Below, piece after piece: positions 1-21,847 of a DNA stretch of 56,962 nucleotides; positions within the stretch are counted from its first letter, which is position 1; every line of letters begins with the position of its first letter. Made by a program: the position numbers and the translations under genes. A model generated the notes under the pieces. That model searched no databases. It was not told the origin of the DNA and worked only from the letters and a program-made list of their open reading frames with translations. Source of the stretch: Oscillospiraceae bacterium (GTDB taxonomy: Bacteria; Bacillota; Clostridia; Oscillospirales; Ruminococcaceae). The stretch lies in the NCBI GenBank assembly GCA_024684395.1, contig JAIKWY010000084.1, forward strand, positions 1-56,962, read 5' to 3'.

Positions 1-12
1 CCTTTCGGGCAG

Positions 13-39
13 TAAAAAAGCACCTCTTTCGAGATGCTT
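13..39 (-). terminator. Rho-independent terminator ending the phage leftward operon
   Basis: On the minus strand a 9-bp stem (one G-U pair, 18-39) closed by a GAAA tetraloop is followed by a run of T residues. It lies 22 bases past the last small phage gene and probably ends the portal/minor-head transcript. Confidence 0.85.
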
Positions 40-61
40 CACACTTGTATTTGACTTGTAT

Positions 62-238
62 TTACGGTTTCAGCTCAACACAGAACACACTGTCGAAGTT
101 GTAGATCCCGACCCATGCGCCCTTGTTCTTAATGATGACCGCCTTTCCGTCATAGGCGTAGTCGTCCCAGTGATCTTTGTCATAGACGATCGTCTCACCA
201 CTCTTGAACGTGATCTCGATTCGAGTTGCGTTTTCCAT
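62..238 (-). CDS. Small phage protein, unknown function (58 aa)
   Basis: The ATG at 238 has a strong GGAGGAG ribosome site and the frame runs 58 codons to TAA. The protein is rich in beta-prone, aromatic and charged residues, with a repeated D/Y/W pattern that could suit a small SH3-like barrel, but I recognise no family. It is the last gene before the operon terminator. Its position downstream of the toxin-like minor head gene makes an accessory or protective role possible; this is inference only. Confidence 0.7.
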   Translation of the reverse strand: MENATRIEITFKSGETIVYDKDHWDDYAYDGKAVIIKNKGAWVGIYNFDSVFCVELKP

Positions 239-247
239 AAACTCCTC

Positions 248-427
248 CTATTCGTAGAACCAACACTTTGTCCCGCACTCGGGGCATTCGCACACAAGCG
301 CATCATCGTTGTATTCTACTTGCTCCCGCTTATACTCTCCTGCATCTGCGATGAACTCGCAGCCGCAGTGCTTGCACCTGAACTGCTTTTTATAGTCAGG
401 CTTCTGACCGTGTTTGATGATCTCCAT
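248..427 (-). CDS. Zinc-ribbon phage microprotein (59 aa)
   Basis: The start at 427 is chosen because GGAGGT lies just upstream. An in-frame upstream ATG at 493 has no such site and would overlap the preceding gene. Cysteines at 18, 21, 23 and 46, 48, 51, 55 form two CxxC-type knuckles typical of small zinc-binding ribbons. No specific family is recognised. It follows the P-loop ATPase gene and is preceded by a leader sequence that also precedes that ATPase gene. Confidence 0.7.
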   Translation of the reverse strand: MEIIKHGQKPDYKKQFRCKHCGCEFIADAGEYKREQVEYNDDALVCECPECGTKCWFYE

Positions 428-431
428 GTCT

Positions 432-454
432 ACCTCCGTCAGGGTATAAGGAAA
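432..454 (-). repeat. Duplicated gene leader, copy 1
   Basis: The stretch shares 22 of 23 positions with 955-977, differing by a one-base indel. Both copies run on the minus strand from a C/T-rich end into GACGGAGGT, the ribosome site of the next gene. Each sits just after a GC-rich inverted repeat at the end of the previous gene. Confidence 0.75.
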
Positions 455-459
455 CCCGC

Positions 460-948
460 TCATTGCTGGGCGGTTCCGTTCTGCTGATACCATTCTTCTG
501 CAAGCTGAAAATACCGGTCAATACGCTCTGCGCGGCGCGGATCGTTTCGGATATTCTCCCGGCATTCCTCCAGCGTGGCGCTCATGCGGACGATCTCACC
601 GCCGAGCCGGTCTGCCAGCTCCTGCACCCTGGCAGGCTCCTTCCTTGCTGTGATGATGTAGGCGGTGTTCCAGTTTCCCTCACGCTTGGAGATAGTGTCA
701 AAAATGGCTTCCCTTGCAGCGAGCGCAACATGAAGCTGCGGTTCCCGGTCACCATAGAGCCGGTCATCCAGAGCGAGCGCGGCTGTCAGGTAGTCGAAGT
801 CAAGCGCGAGGTCTCCGGGTTGCAAATGTGACTTCACATAGTACGTTTTGCCGCTGCCTGGTGCGCCGCTCACGATCACCACTCGTTTTTCCTCGGATTT
901 CATCACCTGTCCGACGAATGCCTTGCGGTATTGTGCTGCCTGTTCCAT
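460..948 (-). CDS. P-loop ATPase/kinase-like phage protein
   Basis: 162 residues from the ATG at 948, which follows GGAGGTGAAATA. A Walker A motif (GAPGSGKT, residues 28-35) follows a short hydrophobic strand, and an acidic strand (LALDFDYL) follows about 25 residues later, as in small nucleotide kinases and AAA_33-type proteins. It is far too small for a terminase large subunit, and no nuclease domain is seen. It could phosphorylate a nucleotide or small molecule, or serve as a packaging accessory; the substrate is unknown. It lies in the phage structural operon between small unknown genes. Confidence 0.75.
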   Translation of the reverse strand: MEQAAQYRKAFVGQVMKSEEKRVVIVSGAPGSGKTYYVKSHLQPGDLALDFDYLTAALALDDRLYGDREPQLHVALAAREAIFDTISKREGNWNTAYIITARKEPARVQELADRLGGEIVRMSATLEECRENIRNDPRRAERIDRYFQLAEEWYQQNGTAQQ

Positions 949-954
949 TATTTC

Positions 955-977
955 ACCTCCGTCAGGGTATAGGAAAA
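955..977 (-). repeat. Duplicated gene leader, copy 2
   Basis: Near-identical to 432-454 (one-base indel). It carries the ribosome site of the P-loop gene that starts at 948 and follows the hairpin at 976-1001. Confidence 0.75.
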
Positions 978-1001
978 CCGCCTTGATCACTCAGGGCGGT
1001 T
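976..1001 (-). terminator. Intergenic hairpin with T-rich tail
   Basis: AACCGCC and GGCGGTT pair as a 7-bp stem around a 12-base loop. On the minus strand the stem is followed by TTCC. It overlaps the stop codon of the gene ending at 1000 and could be a weak terminator or a processing or stability element. Confidence 0.5.
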
Positions 1002-1206
1002 AATCCTCAACAAATTCAACTCTCTCCTTTGTGAAATCAACCCACTTGAAGCCGCCTTCCTGCTCATGGTCTTCAATATCATAAACAAGAAAGCACTTCT
1101 CGTTACCACTGACAGCGAAAACAGAAGACACGAACCATCCGTCATACTCTCCGTTTTCCAAATAGCGGTGGACTTTCACTTTGAAACGGTTTGTGATCTC
1201 AATCAT
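1000..1206 (-). CDS. Small phage protein, unknown function (68 aa)
   Basis: The ATG at 1206 follows GGGGAGTGAGGTGG. The longer frame upstream would read through the neighbouring gene and hairpin, so the short form is preferred. The protein is acidic at its C-terminus, with alternating hydrophobic and aromatic residues suggesting a small beta fold. No family is recognised. The gene is more AT-rich than the portal region and belongs with the cassette behind the toxin-like minor head gene. Confidence 0.65.
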   Translation of the reverse strand: MIEITNRFKVKVHRYLENGEYDGWFVSSVFAVSGNEKCFLVYDIEDHEQEGGFKWVDFTKERVEFVED

Positions 1207-1219
1207 ATTCCACCTCACT

Positions 1220-1243
1220 CCCCGCACTGCTCCCGGTGCGGGG
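1220..1243. other. Perfect 8-bp intergenic hairpin
   Basis: CCCCGCAC and GTGCGGGG flank an 8-base loop directly after the stop codon of the gene ending at 1244. There is no T-run, so RNA processing or stability is more likely than termination. Confidence 0.55.
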
Positions 1244-1423
1244 TTAGTCTTTGTCACACTCAGGATTATACTCATAATCAGGGCACTTGCTTTCTTCATC
1301 AATTTCAGTATGAAAATACTTTTCAGGGATATCATCAGGAAATTGATCACAGCAGCACCAAGGTGAAGATTCAAGAGCCTTGTATTTCTTGCATGTTTGA
1401 CATTTTACACGCCACAATTTCAT
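1244..1423 (-). CDS. Cysteine-rich phage microprotein (59 aa)
   Basis: The ATG at 1423 has a GGAGGG ribosome site, and the start directly abuts the stop codon of the minor head gene. Cysteines at 8, 11, 23, 24, 25, 47 and 56 with an acidic second half suggest metal binding or disulfides. No family is recognised. It is AT-rich like the C-terminal part of the gene upstream, so the two may have been acquired together. That makes it the first candidate for a protective partner of the toxin-like domain; this is inference from position. Confidence 0.65.
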   Translation of the reverse strand: MKLWRVKCQTCKKYKALESSPWCCCDQFPDDIPEKYFHTEIDEESKCPDYEYNPECDKD

Positions 1424-2848
1424 CTAAATCCCTCCAAAGAAAAATCTATATATTTTTGTCCAAGCTGAAACATCTGTATTTCCCATTTCAACTAAGGCCA
1501 TAGCATCAGCAACAAATTCATAATCATTTTTGCGTGAGTTAAACGATGGGAGTACAGAGTTTCTTTTTGAAATAGATGGCAATAGTTTATGAATCTTTGA
1601 CCTCGGATTATTAAGTTCGTCAATTGAGATAAAATGCATATATTCATGAGTAATCGCATATTCTGCGGTTTCGAACCCTTTTGGCAATAGATGACCTTCT
1701 CGCATTCTATCCAACCAATCAGCAGTGGCCTCAGAACTGTTCATATAGTTTGCATTCAGATGGAGCGATAAATCTGGAGCAACTTCTGCGAAGTCAGAAT
1801 CATCCATAGTAGCATCAACAATGATCTGAAAGAAATGCTTGCTATGTTTTTCCTTTAAAGTCCCGAGCCGCTCAAGTAACGGCTGAATGACCTCTCCGTT
1901 TTTCAATGCCGAGAAATCAACAACGCCGGCAGACAATATATCTTTGGCATATTGTTCTGCCGCCTTGACAGCAGCGGCATCCTCAATAACCGAGTACACT
2001 TTTCCTTGTAACGTGAAGTCACTGTCAGCCGCCATCCTTGTCCTTAGTATATCACCCTGCCCCGGTTTTGTCAACCCAGAAACCGCATTTTCCTCGATCT
2101 CCCGTGCCTGCTCCTCCGTGTACACCGTCTCCCTCGAAGCCAGTCTCTCAATCTCCTTCGGATCATGCGCATCCCATGTCTTTTTGCTCCACACATCCTG
2201 CCGCTCCCGTCCGTTCTCGAAGGTCACGGTGCAGGAGCAGTTGTCGTGCCGGTGGAAGATGTCATCCGGGTGGTTGCCGTAGACATAGCGCCCTGCCACG
2301 CCCGTGCACCACTTGCAGCAGCCTGGTGCTGCGATCCGGTCGAGGTAGCACTTGAAGCCGAGGTCGGTGCGGGCACTGGCATTCTCCCGGATGTAGTCAT
2401 CATGAAACGACTTCGACACAGTCGCCACCGGGGCTCCGGCTCTCCGCTCGATCACGGATGCCTCCACAGTCGGATCCAGCAGCGAGTGTGCGATCTGCTG
2501 CACACGTTCGGCGGGGAACTTCGGCTTGACAGGCTTCAGAGACAGCCCCTGAGCCGCGTCCAGCGCCTCCTGTACCTCTCCGCAGATGTCGTTCGTGGAA
2601 TCATACCGTTCCCGGAGCAGCGCCTTACAGATGCTCTCACGGGCTTCTGCCGGCATGTCTGCGATCGCTTCGGAAAACACCTCACCGAGCAGCTCCGCCG
2701 ACCGGTCAGACCAGACCGCCGTATCCCGGAAAGTCGCCTTGCCCTCCCCGATGCGCCGCAGCACCCGCCGGATCTCCGGGTCATGTTCCATGCGCCGGTA
2801 CAGCTCCCCGAGAAGCTGCTGATACAGCGCCCTTGTCTGCTCATCCAT
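1424..2848 (-). CDS. Phage minor head protein with C-terminal metalloprotease-like domain
   Basis: 474 residues. Roughly the first 260 resemble SPP1 gp7/Mu F-type head morphogenesis proteins, with the cysteine/histidine cluster CCKWCTGVAG...HRHDNCSC near residues 180-215. These proteins enter the head and follow the portal gene, as here. From about residue 270 the DNA becomes clearly AT-rich and the protein carries HEYMH at 401-405 with a downstream glutamate at 444 (DYEFVAD), a zincin-like HExxH...E arrangement. Phage head proteins are known to carry variable toxin-like tails. The fusion, composition shift and motif are seen; activity and target are inferred. Confidence 0.8.
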   Translation of the reverse strand: MDEQTRALYQQLLGELYRRMEHDPEIRRVLRRIGEGKATFRDTAVWSDRSAELLGEVFSEAIADMPAEARESICKALLRERYDSTNDICGEVQEALDAAQGLSLKPVKPKFPAERVQQIAHSLLDPTVEASVIERRAGAPVATVSKSFHDDYIRENASARTDLGFKCYLDRIAAPGCCKWCTGVAGRYVYGNHPDDIFHRHDNCSCTVTFENGRERQDVWSKKTWDAHDPKEIERLASRETVYTEEQAREIEENAVSGLTKPGQGDILRTRMAADSDFTLQGKVYSVIEDAAAVKAAEQYAKDILSAGVVDFSALKNGEVIQPLLERLGTLKEKHSKHFFQIIVDATMDDSDFAEVAPDLSLHLNANYMNSSEATADWLDRMREGHLLPKGFETAEYAITHEYMHFISIDELNNPRSKIHKLLPSISKRNSVLPSFNSRKNDYEFVADAMALVEMGNTDVSAWTKIYRFFFGGI

Positions 2849-3014
2849 CAGCCTTGTCCTCCCTCAGATCATCGAGCTGCCAGCTCTCCGGGTTCTTTGT
2901 AGCCTGCAATGTACAATAGCCGTACCCCGTCCGGAACACGCACTCGCTGCATCCACGCTCACCGCAGTACTGCCGGAGCAGCTCGGCGCAGCGGAGAGCC
3001 TTGGCGTCACTCAT
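2841..3014 (-). CDS. Small cysteine-containing phage protein (57 aa)
   Basis: Its start codon overlaps the stop of the preceding gene (ATGAGTGA) and its end overlaps the minor head start by 8 bases, so the three genes are translationally coupled. An alternative ATG lies at 3026. Cysteines occur as CGERGCSEC and a lone CTL, suggesting a small zinc site. No family is recognised. It sits between portal and minor head genes. Confidence 0.6.
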   Translation of the reverse strand: MSDAKALRCAELLRQYCGERGCSECVFRTGYGYCTLQATKNPESWQLDDLREDKADG

Positions 3015-3198
3015 GGCATTCTTCATTCAGCCACCGGGCGATGCAGTCACGGCAGAACGTCACGTTGGCGCATCTGCCTTCCACTTCTGCCCCGATCGCA
3101 TCCAGAACGCACTCCGGTTCCTTATCCTCAATGTTCTCATTCATCATCAGCAGCATGTCATACAGTGCCATGCTGCCGAGTTTTTCACGGTTGGTCAT
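3007..3198 (-). CDS. Small phage protein, unknown function (63 aa)
   Basis: The ATG at 3198 is chosen because GGAG lies 8 bases upstream, inside the end of the portal gene. Predicted mostly helical, with a CxxxxxxCxxC pattern in the second half (CANVTFCRDC). This pattern is shared with the next small gene, so the two may be related zinc-binding proteins. Function unknown. Confidence 0.6.
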   Translation of the reverse strand: MTNREKLGSMALYDMLLMMNENIEDKEPECVLDAIGAEVEGRCANVTFCRDCIARWLNEECHE

Positions 3199-3203
3199 AC
3201 ATC

Positions 3204-4433
3204 TCACTCCGTTTCCGCATCACTTTCCATCCCCGTCGCCGCACGGATATTCCTTGCGCCAAAGAAGCCCTCCGATGCCTGATTGATCTTGAAGATCGCA
3301 TCGCCGAGCGCTCCCAGAGCGGCGGCATCCGGCTCGAAGATCGGCAGATAGGTGCAGCGGGTGCCGGCAAATGCCTTGCGCTCATAGCCGTAGTTGTCCC
3401 GGATACATGCAGCCAGGTAACCGGCATTGACGAAGCCCGTCCCAAACGTCTGCTGCGCACGTCTTGCCGTCAGCCTGAGCTGCTCATGGCTCGCCCGGAT
3501 GGCGTCATAGCTCGCCGGGTTCTCGGTCGTGAAGCCAAGGTCATCGAGCGTCAGACCGGTTTCCGCCGCAAACAGCGAGGCGAGCATCTTGGTCTGTGCC
3601 ACGAACGGCTCCATGCTGCCGGCGTTGAACTGCCCGAGCGTCGGATGCTGCCCGTCCCGATCCTTGCCGAAGCCGAGGAAGCTGGACAGGGTCGCCGCCC
3701 TGTTGTTGAACTTCGCCGGATTTTCCAGACCGAGGATGTATTTCTGCGGCACAGAGTAGAACTCCGCCGCCGTCTCCGTCCGGAGCAGCGTCCGCAGAGC
3801 GCTCTGTACGATGTCCATGCAGGCTCTACTGATGCGGGAATGCCCGAACGGTCTGTGTGCATCCGGTCGGAAGATCACCGGCACAAGCAGCGGATAGGGT
3901 GCCTTGTGGACAAACACATCCACGAGCTGCCCCTTGCCGTTGTAGTACTCCGTGCGGTTCGGCAGGAAGTATACCTCCAGCTCGACCTCGCCGTAGTCAT
4001 CCCGCCGCAGAACGGCATAGCCCTCGGTCAGCAGGTTCGTCCTGGCATCGATGATGCCTGTCGCATTCCCGCCGTCGATGCACTCGATCGTCGGATAGCC
4101 GGCATCGTCCTGCCCGAGGTACAGGAAGCTGCACGAGCTGATGAGCGCCGACAGGATCGCCGATCCGTACAGCACATCTGCATTGTTCAGCCGGTAGATC
4201 TCCCCGATGCCTGCGATGTCACCGTCAAAGCTGTCCACAACGATCCGGTCGGACAGCGTGTCCACCGCCTTGCCGCACCAGCCGAGGGTATAGCTCAGCG
4301 TCCGGAGCTCCTCCGGGATCAGCGCCGAGATCTTGCGCATCGCCTGCTTCATTTCGTAGTATTTATACCGCAGCTCGACCCGGCTCTGCTTCTGCGAGAG
4401 CTTGCTGCGGAGATAGTCGATGCCGTAGTTCAT
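3204..4433 (-). CDS. Phage portal protein (SPP1 gp6-like)
   Basis: 409 residues, matching the phage portal family of SPP1 gp6 type: an N-terminal helical segment, a central beta-rich domain, the HRPFGHSRIS loop and a long C-terminal helical stem with LTLDDLGFTTENPAS. Portals form the dodecameric ring at the capsid vertex through which DNA is packaged and the tail attaches. It is slightly shorter than SPP1 gp6. The minor head gene follows, as in that family. Unusually, no terminase gene precedes it; only about 250 non-coding bases separate it from a DUF1492-type regulator. Confidence 0.88.
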   Translation of the reverse strand: MNYGIDYLRSKLSQKQSRVELRYKYYEMKQAMRKISALIPEELRTLSYTLGWCGKAVDTLSDRIVVDSFDGDIAGIGEIYRLNNADVLYGSAILSALISSCSFLYLGQDDAGYPTIECIDGGNATGIIDARTNLLTEGYAVLRRDDYGEVELEVYFLPNRTEYYNGKGQLVDVFVHKAPYPLLVPVIFRPDAHRPFGHSRISRACMDIVQSALRTLLRTETAAEFYSVPQKYILGLENPAKFNNRAATLSSFLGFGKDRDGQHPTLGQFNAGSMEPFVAQTKMLASLFAAETGLTLDDLGFTTENPASYDAIRASHEQLRLTARRAQQTFGTGFVNAGYLAACIRDNYGYERKAFAGTRCTYLPIFEPDAAALGALGDAIFKINQASEGFFGARNIRAATGMESDAETE

Positions 4434-4683
4434 GGATCCTCACACCCTCCGAGAGAGAAAATGAGCAGTGACGTTGTGAAGGTCTTTGGTGATGATGAAG
4501 GGGGTACCCTCCCCCCATGCCTGCACACGCCCTGCCCCTGCAAACACAAGAGCACCGGACGACTGCCCGATGCTCTCATGCCATAAAACAAGAAGGAGAA
4601 AAACTGCGGAGAAGCGAACCGGCAGTTTTGCTGCCGGAAAGCACTGCACTTCATCTCCGCCGCTTTTCTATATTACCATTCTA
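4434..4683. other. Non-coding gap upstream of portal with two hairpins
   Basis: No convincing gene is present. Two stem-loops are seen: 4550-4575 (9 bp with one wobble) and 4619-4637 (7 bp, CCGGCAG/CTGCCGG). Neither has a long T-run. Terminase genes normally occupy this position in SPP1-like phages. On the minus strand AT-rich sequence near 4665-4683 could serve as a late promoter, but no clear -35 is visible. Confidence 0.6.
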
Positions 4684-5115
4684 TCACATTTTAGGGTGAC
4701 ATACAATGACAATTTGATCGAGAGCGGCTTTGTGCTTCCGCTGAATGGTTCTCTTGTCGTAATGCATCTTCTCGGCAATCTTATCGAATGTTTCGTACAT
4801 CAGGTAGTGCCACATCAGGATCGCCTGCATGTCATCATCGCCCACAGTCGCAATCGCACCGGCTATCTCGTCACGGATCTTCACGAGCTCGGTGAGCCGC
4901 AGCTCCGTCTCCTGTTCTGTCTCTGCGAGGCGGAGCAGCGCGTTTTCCGTGCTGTTGTCCGATCCGCTGCCACCCGTTCCGGATGCAAGTCCGCTCCGGA
5001 TCCGTTCCGCGAGGCTCCGGTCGCACTCCCGCTTTTCCACCCATGCCTGTGCAATTTTGTCAGCATGGAATGCCCGGTTGAGCCAGCGGATCCGTTCAAT
5101 CTGTTCTGCTGTCAC
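4684..5115 (-). CDS. DUF1492-type phage regulator (sigma-like late activator)
   Basis: 143 residues from a GTG at 5115, chosen for its GGAGGAGAAAC ribosome site. The last 60 residues (ILMWHYLMYETFDKIAEKMH followed by DKRTIQRKHK) form a sigma region 4-like helix-turn-helix, typical of DUF1492/ArpU/RinA-like regulators that activate late genes. An N-terminal helical part and a Gly/Ser-rich linker near residues 40-52 precede it. It lies just before the structural genes, the usual position for a late activator. Confidence 0.75.
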   Translation of the reverse strand: MTAEQIERIRWLNRAFHADKIAQAWVEKRECDRSLAERIRSGLASGTGGSGSDNSTENALLRLAETEQETELRLTELVKIRDEIAGAIATVGDDDMQAILMWHYLMYETFDKIAEKMHYDKRTIQRKHKAALDQIVIVCHPKM

Positions 5116-19149: not shown

Positions 19150-19172
19150 GAAAATAGTTGGAGGTGAATCTA

Positions 19173-19835
19173 ATGAAGGATTTTTCTAATCAATTAAAGA
19201 AAGTCATGAAAATACGTGGGATCAGCCAAACCGAACTCTGTGATAGAACAGGAATACCAAAGTCTGCAATGAGTCAATACATTTCCGGTGCGTTCAAGCC
19301 GAAGCAGGAGCGTGTCTATTTATTGGCTAAGGCTTTGAGAACTACACCTGAATATCTTATGGGATTAACAGATGATGAAGAACCGCCTGTTCTTTTTTCT
19401 TTTCATGTTGATAATAATAATGCAGAGATTCTTCCAGACAAATATCTTCGACGTATACCAACTTTTGAAAGCTGTGCTGCCGGATTCGGTGCTTATGCAG
19501 ATAGTACAATTACAGGGTACCAGTACCTTAGTATCCAAAGTGACTGGGAGGCTGAGCATACAATAGCTGTTAAAGTAAAGGGAGACTCTATGTACCCTAA
19601 GATCGAGGATGGTGATATTGTCATTGTGTGTAAAGATATGGATTACGAGGATGGTCAGATTGTTGTTGCAAGGATCGGTGATGACGAAGCTGTCGTGAAG
19701 CGGATCCATTTATTTCCTGATAAGCTCGTTCTTGAATCTATCAATCCGGAGTATATGGACAGAGTTTTCCGTAAAGAACAAATGAATTCTGTTCACATAG
19801 AGGGTGTAGTCAAGAAAATCATAAAAAACGTGTAA
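19173..19835 (+). CDS. LexA/CI-like phage repressor
   Basis: 220 residues from the ATG at 19173 (GGAGGTGAATCTA). The N-terminal Cro/CI helix-turn-helix (ISQTELCDRTGIPKSAMS, about 17-34) binds the operators. A linker leads to an S24 peptidase domain with cleavage site Ala103-Gly104 (CAAGFGA), nucleophile Ser139 (GDSMYP) and base Lys176 (EAVVKR). RecA-stimulated self-cleavage after DNA damage is expected, so the prophage is likely SOS-inducible. The gene is more AT-rich than the structural region. Confidence 0.92.
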   Translation: MKDFSNQLKKVMKIRGISQTELCDRTGIPKSAMSQYISGAFKPKQERVYLLAKALRTTPEYLMGLTDDEEPPVLFSFHVDNNNAEILPDKYLRRIPTFESCAAGFGAYADSTITGYQYLSIQSDWEAEHTIAVKVKGDSMYPKIEDGDIVIVCKDMDYEDGQIVVARIGDDEAVVKRIHLFPDKLVLESINPEYMDRVFRKEQMNSVHIEGVVKKIIKNV

Positions 19836-20392: not shown

Positions 20393-21828
20393 ATGCAGGC
20401 AAAAACCGCAGCGGCATACGCCCGCTACAGCACCGACCATCAGACCAGCAGCTCCATCGAGTACCAGATGCGGCGCATCGAGGAGTACTGCAAGGCGAAC
20501 GGTATCACCGTCACGGCACGGTTCGCCGATGAAGCCTGCACGGGCACCAACACCGACCGCCCCGCATTTCAGGCACTCTGTGCAGCCGCCAGAGCGCACA
20601 GCTTTCAGGCAGTCGTGGTCTACGACATCAGCCGTGGCAGCCGTGACGTTGCCGATTGGTTCGGCTTCCGGCGGGAGATGGCACTGCTCGGCATTGAGGT
20701 CATCAGCGTGGAGGACAAGCTCGGCGACATCTTGAATCCGTCCGACTACCTGACCGAGCTGATCACCGTCGGACTCGGACAGCACCACGTCCTGACGAGC
20801 CGCCAGAAGTCGATGGACAGCGTTGCGACCAAGGCAAAGACCGGGCAGTTCCTCGGCGGATACCCGCCGTTCGGGTACGAAATCCGGAACGGGCAGTACT
20901 TCATCGTGCCGGAGGAGGCACGGATCGTCCGTCAGATCTTCGACATGTACGCAGCAGGGGAGAGCTACAACCGGATCCTCGCTGCGATCGGTCAGGTAAG
21001 GGGCAAGCGTGGGCGTGTGATCGGCAGCAATTCTCTTCATGCTATGCTGAAAAACGAGCGGTACATCGGTGTTTACACATGGTGCAAGGTGCATCAGAAG
21101 ATCATGGGCAAGTATGCGGGACGGATCCCGAACGAGAATGCTGTGCGCATCGAGGGAGCCATCCCGGCGATCATCGACAAGGAAACATGGGAGAAGGTGC
21201 AGGCAAGAATGAGCGACAAGAAGCGGAATGCGTGCAATAAGGCGAAGCGGGAGTATCTGCTGTCCGGTCTGATCGAGTGTACAGCGTGCGGCGGGACGTA
21301 TGTCGGGCACACCACGACCAGCAAGGGGCATGAGTACAAGTGCTACTGCTGCGGCACGAAGTACCGGAACCACACCTGCAATGCCAAGAATATCAACGCA
21401 GAGGAGATCGAGACGTTTGTTGTGCAGAATCTGAAGGACTATCTGCTGCGGCTCGATTTTGACACGATGGCGAAGAAGATCGCCGATGAGATCAACGGGG
21501 CAGGGGAGGACCTCAAAGCGGAGCGGGCAGAGCTGCTCGATGTCGAGGCGCAGCTTGCCAACGGCACCCGTGCGATCCTCAAGGGGCTGGACTACCCGGA
21601 GCTGCAGCAGGAGATGTTCAAGCTGCGGGTGCGGAAGTCTGAGCTGGAGGACATCGTCGGCAGGAAGAACCCTAAGAAGCCTGTTGATCCGGAGAAAATC
21701 GCCGCAATGCTGCGGTCATTCACGGAGAACTGGAGCACGGATCTCGGCTCGATCGTCCGCAGTATGGTAAAAATATACGCCCATGCTGATGGTAGCTATG
21801 ACCTCAACATAGGCGTACATATCATGAG

Positions 21829-21847
<19 letters not shown>
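20393..21847 (+). CDS. Large serine recombinase (prophage integrase)
   Basis: 484 residues. The N-terminal resolvase domain has the catalytic Ser13 in ARYSTDHQ and conserved DISRGSRD. A recombinase domain (GQFLGGYPPFGYEI) follows, then a zinc ribbon near residue 297 (CTACGG...CYCC) and a C-terminal coiled coil. It integrates and excises the element between attP and attB. The final residues and stop codon (ending 21847) lie within the 3' end of the initiator tRNA gene, so integration completed its reading frame or overlaps it. Expression may be controlled by the hairpins upstream. Confidence 0.92.

Follow-up and report, generated by a model that had tools for sequence, protein, structure and literature searches.

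A predicted promoter at the carrier-tail joint of a putative MuF-type toxin cassette in a prophage of an Oscillospiraceae bacterium

A prophage of an Oscillospiraceae bacterium carries a minor head protein gene fused to a zincin-like tail and followed directly by a small Cys-rich gene, and the coding DNA at the joint of the fusion reads as a sigma-70-type promoter. We consider it probable that tail and small gene represent a phage MuF-type toxin and its cognate immunity gene, which would form a mobile cassette with, at its 5' edge, a promoter transcribing the immunity gene in the lysogen. Four things seen in the sequences carry this reading, namely the fusion, the transfer of the tail together with its partner, the conservation of the promoter at the DNA level and arrays of spare cassettes in two relatives. 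The stretch of DNA analysed, hereafter the window, is contig JAIKWY010000084.1 over 56,962 nucleotides, and its features are collected in Table 1. The original prediction, which read the gene at 1424-2848 as a head protein with a toxin-like metalloprotease tail, is supported overall.

Table 1. Features of the window and of two related loci (positions are those of the window unless a locus is named)
Feature	Position	Strand	Remarks
Minor head protein fused to tail	1424..2848	minus	VG15/MuF-superfamily residues 1-267, zincin-like tail ~270-474
Zincin-like tail domain	1427..2032	minus	HEYMH 401-405, Glu444
Predicted sigma-70-type promoter, in frame at joint	2046..2074	minus	TTGACA-N17-TATACT, TG-extended, 11/12 matches
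Putative immunity gene, 59 aa, Cys-rich	1244..1423	minus	start codon abuts toxin stop (TAGATG)
68-aa gene	1000..1206	minus	apparently not tail-specific
Terminator-like hairpin	971..1001	minus	AACCGCC...GGCGGTTTTCCT; after 68-aa gene; read from sequence
Portal protein	3204..4433	minus	phrog_104, E 1.5e-101
CI-like repressor	19158..19835	plus	S24 peptidase E 5.2e-27, HTH_3 E 1.5e-10
Serine-recombinase integrase	20393..21847	plus	phrog_95, E 6.5e-102; marks temperate element
Tandem orphan toxin-immunity arrays, repeated carrier 3' ends	L168 1-2150; L205 5873-8680		within phage head-gene regions

The head protein, its tail and the prophage

The open reading frame proposed for this gene was recovered at its full extent, on the minus strand (a strand that the original prediction had not given), with an ATG start and a product of 474 aa. 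Its front part, which had been described as SPP1 gp7/Mu F-like, is indeed a VG15/MuF-superfamily domain: with the full protein as query, the minor head protein family phrog_2494 matches residues 7-247 (E 6.5e-34) and Pfam PF25310 (VG15) matches residues 49-215, with 29.6 bits against a cut-off of 26. Neither PF04233 nor PF06152 matched the window protein in Pfam at E up to 5, so that its assignment to MuF is by the MuF3-like route only. Against GenBank phages, tblastn aligned the carrier with gp35 of Streptococcus mitis phage SM1 (E 2e-16), and SM1 is assigned a MuF3 toxin in Jamet 2017 (PMC5576092). The portal gene lies 355 bp upstream, with two short ORFs in between, and a MuF-superfamily head domain encoded beside a portal is one of the marks of a MuF polymorphic toxin. 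The turn to AT-rich DNA in the back part of the gene was also as predicted, G+C in 200-nt windows falling from 0.63-0.65 within 2301-2800 to 0.33-0.35 within 1401-1700.

From position 1 to about 21.9 kb the window reads as a prophage, and the genes past the integrase look chromosomal by eye. Repressor and integrase belong to the same element as the fusion gene, in agreement with the temperate phages that carry MuF polymorphic toxins. On contig C71 the prophage continues with HNH, terminase (phrog_9, E 8.7e-61), scaffold-type protein and major head protein (phrog_267, E 1.2e-31) genes, a junction that we infer from a shared 105-bp end; the contig-end pairings made here (C147-C71 and C148-C41) are based on such shared 105-bp ends and on gene content, not on reads.

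In the tail, HEYMH and the Glu444 of DYEFVAD are found exactly where they had been announced. Both His and the Glu of HExxH, as well as Glu444, are invariant across three homologous tails, the Asp of E-x3-D being replaced by Asn in one of them (L045, see below), and HExxH occurs in 25 of the 72 complete tails of related carriers as against none of the 103 carrier N-parts, so that the zincin-like pattern exceeds chance. An HExxH with a third-ligand Glu on the following helix, as read from the sequence and the tail model, characterises zincins of the gluzincin type; the metal-site residues lie at or in predicted helices 123-132 and 170-182 of this model (numbered from residue 273), which has a mean pLDDT of 66.7, the other four models having 42-47. 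The fold search proposed along with the prediction gave mixed results: VIA-align and BFVD comparisons point to zincins, whereas Foldseek of the tail model against the PDB gave no significant match. The best VIA-align matches are M34-type gluzincins (lethal-factor family, PPEP-1/Zmp1), with 13-18% identity in those rows. Known M34-type gluzincins have HExxH plus a downstream Glu, and the window tail has the same arrangement; it differs from them by this low identity, by another route of delivery and by giving no match to PDB sequences up to E 1.

Sequence searches with the tail (residues 273-474) returned no Pfam match up to E 5 and a best PHROG E of 0.034, and NCBIfam gave no match for the whole head protein. 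No relatives of the window tail were found in viral contigs, in GenBank phages or in a first scan of genome contigs. A profile built from the window and L045 tails (A2) found none in viral contigs and, in a second scan of genome contigs, gave one match, on a Ruminococcus MAG contig. Weak A2 matches in six further genomes were set aside, five being by eye genes of what we take to be YgjP-like metallopeptidases and the sixth (L170) being unrelated.

Exchange of tails and partner genes between carriers

Among 295 genomes, the window's own included, a single tail homologue was found besides the window itself, in a genome indicated as an uncultured Ruminococcus MAG (locus L045). This tail is 54% identical over the tail length and is fused to a Phage_min_cap2 carrier (PF06152, E 7.8e-59) that BLAST could not align with the VG15 carrier of the window (best E 0.48). 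With the A2 profile, 394 genomes of the order yielded a third, distant copy (L168, E 3.7e-18), also on a min_cap2 carrier (PF06152, E 3.2e-109), and 398 genomes of the phylum yielded only the window.

For a census of carriers we combined 72 VG15 and 33 min_cap2 loci with 15 others (12 VG15 genome loci, the window, L045 and L168), 120 in all; of 13 VG15 genome loci fetched, 12 entered the census, L052 (cut by a contig end) and the C148 fragment were excluded before counting, and five additional weak or short VG15 matches stayed outside. Removing copies more than 95% identical left 103 carriers, 72 of which (54 VG15, 18 min_cap2) have a complete tail no shorter than 80 aa. These 72 tails fall into 33 families, and the comparison of homologous head proteins that had been suggested thus gave the expected picture of conserved N-termini with interchangeable C-termini, about a third of them with HExxH (the 25 tails above); this combination is another mark of MuF polymorphic toxins. 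The tail group of the window is linked to a second HExxH group with the same type of partner (hhalign probability 70%, E 5e-6, in a single comparison). A further HExxH tail class has a different small partner, of N-x-EWY type (L205 6929-7830, L049, L062, L097), and is also found as an orphan cassette.

Three small downstream genes had been put forward as protective partners, and the sequences favour this role for the 59-aa gene, which moves with the tail, and not for the 68-aa and 58-aa genes. A ribosome-site-like GGAGGG lies inside the last toxin codons ahead of the 59-aa gene. The L045 tail is followed by a homologous gene of 59 aa (47% identical over 55 aa, E 7e-17), and similar Cys-rich genes stand 3' of eight HExxH tails, with C8, C11, C25, P29 and P33 invariant. 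Pairwise comparison of the 66 tailed carriers with a small next gene showed homology of these next genes in 39 of the 75 pairs whose tails are homologous, compared with 4 of the 2070 other pairs; permuting the labels gave a mean of 1.5 and a maximum of 8 in 2000 permutations against the 39 observed. Across the two carrier types, BLAST detected partner homology in one of 10 testable tail pairs, that of the window and L045, the L168 partner being connected only via L055. A cognate small downstream gene, here recognised by co-transfer, belongs to the picture of a MuF polymorphic toxin, and this co-transfer suggests that the 59-aa Cys-rich product is the cognate immunity protein; its structure model (pLDDT 62.7, pTM 0.43) is not good enough to be of use. 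As immunity genes, the 68-aa and 58-aa genes were rejected, a near-identical copy of the 68-aa gene being found beside a JAMM-like tail in L048. The hairpin behind the 68-aa gene, noted from the sequence and absent from the list of the promoter-region scan, may possibly be the end of the transcript from the predicted promoter described below.

A repeat stands before other small genes of this region. An identical 15-base stretch, TACCCTGACGGAGGT, stands at 432-446 and 955-969 of the window (minus strand), ahead of two small genes, with 3 matches at up to 2 mismatches where 0.02 are expected; relatives carry it, as 'LYPDGGE', ahead of several small genes, and it resembles start-associated repeats that separate exchangeable small genes. 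In L045 (5064-5953), a Panacea-domain antitoxin gene (PF13274, E 8.8e-19) and a gene following it come soon after the toxin cassette of the Ruminococcus phage.

Spare cassettes were found in two relatives. In L168, the min_cap2-zincin gene and its partner precede two orphan cassettes, each of which consists, in this order, of a terminator-like hairpin, some 150 bp repeated from the carrier 3' end at 85-96% identity, another toxin tail and a small gene; a further repeat is cut off by the end of the contig. The tail of the first orphan is a known polymorphic-toxin domain, papain fold toxin 1 (PF15644; 27.4 bits, cut-off 24.1). Three orphan cassettes in a row precede the scaffold and major head genes of L205, and the stretch fetched contains no intact carrier. 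The genome of the window itself holds, on contig C148, a relic made up of a stop-containing piece of a carrier, a tail of another kind and a partner of 95 aa, adjoining a nifS-like class-V aminotransferase gene. Five of the six orphan tails (the five of the arrays and that of the window's own genome) have homologues on intact carriers. C148 (L044 1-1600) and C41 (L041 1-372), with a cut HNH gene, appear as a relic of a prophage in the host chromosome, with cysteine-synthase-like genes beside it on C41. Read together, the tail and its small gene form, as putative toxin and immunity, one mobile cassette, passed between head proteins that are not related to each other. As far as its sequence can tell, the window gene adds to the MuF polymorphic toxins a new member whose zincin-like tail had not been modelled before and whose immunity gene is credible.

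The predicted promoter at the joint

At about residues 259-268 of the head protein, the coding DNA reads TTG ACA AAA CCG GGG CAG GGT GAT ATA CTA, in which the -35 TTGACA encodes L259-T260 and, after a 17-nt spacer, TGA-TATACT falls in D266-I267-L268. This site, from 2074 to 2046, is the best on the minus strand within positions 1-5000; counting both strands, the window has nine more promoter-like sites that score 11-12/12. Of the tailed carriers in the census, 28 of 54 with VG15 and 7 of 18 with min_cap2 have a match of at least 11/12 no more than 120 nt from the joint, TG-extended in 27 and 4 of them. When the codons of each gene were shuffled among synonyms, the mean was 1.39 and the maximum 5 for VG15, and 0.73 and 3 for min_cap2; other 240-nt windows of the same loci had 25/1365 and 4/519, and other windows inside the same genes 15/296 and 0/143 respectively, some of the 15 VG15 matches being joints located further down than the end of the match. 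Among tailless carriers 1 of 29 has a site, and that one has a truncated tail. Between -120 and +330 nt of the joint, such a site is present in the sense direction in 43 of 72 tailed carriers, in at least one of which (L066) it sits mid-tail, and in the antisense direction in 1 of 72; local dinucleotide shuffles gave 0.45 on average and 4 at most. Even at 10/12, 18 of the 72 tails have none. Promoter-bearing joints occur in 22 of 33 tail families. The loci are related: with carriers clustered at 70% identity, 28 of 39 clusters include one or more promoter-bearing members, and at 50% 7 of 13 do. The joint of the C148 relic retains TTGACA-17-TACAAT and the L168 orphan joints have TTGCAA-16-TATAAT; the pattern scan gave no site at the L205 orphan joints.

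The conservation bears on the DNA as well as on the protein. Anchoring on the protein motif LT-x5-[GDSN]-X-[IML], present in 40 of 72 tailed carriers, we found the Leu encoded by TTG in 40/40 and by neither TTA nor CTN (background TTG 14%, TTA 21%), the codon for Gly, Asp, Ser or Asn ending in T in 40/40 and the X codon of the form A-N-A in 37/40, irrespective of the residue (Ile, Lys, Arg or Thr). At the position after Gly or Asp the residue thus changes (I, K, R, M, T), yet a TANAAT-like site is retained in the DNA. This test of the DNA superseded an earlier regular-expression test of the protein motif (18/54 and 6/18; shuffles 1.22 and 0.68). The -10 lies in a single reading frame in 42 of 43 cases, which, the loci being related, may reflect a protein-level constraint or common descent.

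Two sets outside the census were also scanned. PF04233 (MuF1) carriers of the same order had it in 4 of 13 tailed cases against 0.22 expected, a rough figure obtained by crude frame picking from 25 loci (seven without a usable frame, five with tails below 80 aa), and two of these four sites are not TG-extended. From GenBank phage records (16 fetched among 80 matches listed, of 102 and 93 records; 10 with tails), one of 10 tailed carriers has a site of at least 11/12 (12/12, in a faecal phage) against 0.38 expected, and three against 1.68 at 10/12; five Streptococcus phages had none at 11/12. The joint promoter would therefore be a feature of some phages only, chiefly those of Clostridia type that were sampled here. 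For a predicted promoter within the toxin ORF, upstream of the immunity gene, we regard the sequence evidence as strong.

A proposed mechanism and its relation to known systems

A head protein gene is expected to be expressed late, and a lysogen would not express it. With coding DNA at the 5' edge of the cassette doubling as a sigma-70 promoter, the immunity gene could be transcribed in the lysogen while the late genes are off. We propose that a few copies of the toxin would be brought into the virion, near the portal, by the VG15 head domain, that the zincin tail would pass into the next cell along with the DNA and cleave a protein there, that full toxin would be produced in the lytic cycle only and that the joint promoter would meanwhile serve the immunity gene of lysogens; promoter activity, toxicity, injection and immunity are what we infer here from the sequences.

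The same promoter might instead drive tail and immunity gene together as a stand-alone toxin-antitoxin module that stabilises the prophage, as the internal promoter P2 and toxic internal products of Salmonella Rhs would suggest (PMC7043789) and as the ATG (M272) closely 3' of the -10 in the window would allow. We hold this to be unlikely: this ATG is so near the expected transcript start that its ribosome site would hardly be transcribed, and of the 43 joints with a promoter just one offers the bare tail a start with a good ribosome site (at least 5/6) within 75 nt, which makes expression of immunity only the likelier outcome. Still less probable, in our view, is that the LT-x5-GII residues matter as protein, be it as a linker or as a head-protease site, and that the promoter is a by-product or idle; the single reading frame of the -10 speaks for it, and against it stand codons that are fixed despite available synonyms, the varying residue over a kept TANAAT-like site and the failure of synonymous shuffles to reproduce the site. 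The head-protease site had been a candidate of ours and was dropped after the codon test.

As for the tail, it might be an injected helper peptidase, for processing or anti-defence, that serves the phage, with the Cys-rich protein as its chaperone: zincins are the commonest domain of the polyvalent proteins of phages and plasmids, proposed as polypeptide processors (PMC5512222), and Jamet 2017 (PMC5576092) suggests that mild effectors could steer the choice between lysis and lysogeny. The swapping of cassettes with a cognate small gene and the spare arrays, one with a known toxin domain, are the pattern of toxin and immunity, and we judge the helper improbable. That HExxH arose by chance in an ordinary variable phage C-terminus, as the shortness of a five-residue motif and the Foldseek result might suggest, seems very improbable with a metal site invariant in three divergent tails, the absence of HExxH from all N-parts and the VIA-align and BFVD comparisons.

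The putative toxin-immunity cassette with its predicted promoter has several known relatives, compared here as far as the available parts of the sources go. MuF toxins of temperate phages (PMC5576092), in whose survey metallopeptidases make up 20%, share with the window the portal-adjacent MuF-superfamily head protein, the variable C-terminal toxin, the small downstream ORF and the temperate phage; the window differs by a tail without significant Pfam, NCBIfam or PHROG match, and its system adds the predicted joint promoter, a tail-immunity pair common to two carrier families and the spare-cassette arrays ('promoter', 'orphan' and 'recombin' have no occurrence in the main text of Jamet 2017). 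Apk2 and Bxa (PMC12226406, PMC11699363) are likewise head-protein fusions with an antibacterial C-terminus and adjacent immunity genes, these having been tested in E. coli, but are an alarmone synthetase and an ADP-ribosyltransferase, not peptidases; the available parts of both papers mention cloning promoters only and no joint promoter. In Salmonella Rhs, the toxin ORF of main and orphan cassettes alike contains an internal promoter, P2, close to its conserved boundary motif (PMC7043789), as is predicted for the window, but the start site of P2 lies 89 nt above PxxxxDPxGL and belongs to a gene of a secretion system, whereas in the window the boundary motif itself, in a phage head gene, is the predicted promoter. 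In the T6SS of V. cholerae, promoters inside effector genes drive the immunity genes (PMC3857813), so that immunity is transcribed independently of the delivery operon, as we propose here; that system is bacterial, not of phages, and in the available part of the paper its promoters are not a boundary element common to unrelated carriers. In the open-access literature, judged mostly by title and start of the abstract, we found no report of a joint promoter in MuF toxin genes, nor, in its available parts, a published regulatory answer to how a lysogen protects itself from the toxin in its own phage heads. The predicted joint promoter and the cassette arrays are what is new in comparison with the known MuF toxins.

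A conserved, DNA-level joint promoter would offer a concrete and cheaply testable candidate answer to the question of lysogen self-protection; it may serve as a sequence tag by which to search phage genomes for toxin joints and immunity genes, and it would link phage toxins with the Rhs and T6SS cassette systems. We lean, by a small degree, towards a wider reading, in which Clostridia-type phages have a class of cassettes whose 5' boundary is a dual-code element, at once a linker joining any head protein to any toxin, a shared exchange sequence and a TG-extended sigma-70 promoter of consensus type. This promoter would leave immunity switched on in the lysogen and turn the spare cassettes of arrays, and relics such as C148, into self-sufficient immunity genes. 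If this is true, prophages would stockpile resistance to the injected toxins of rival phages.
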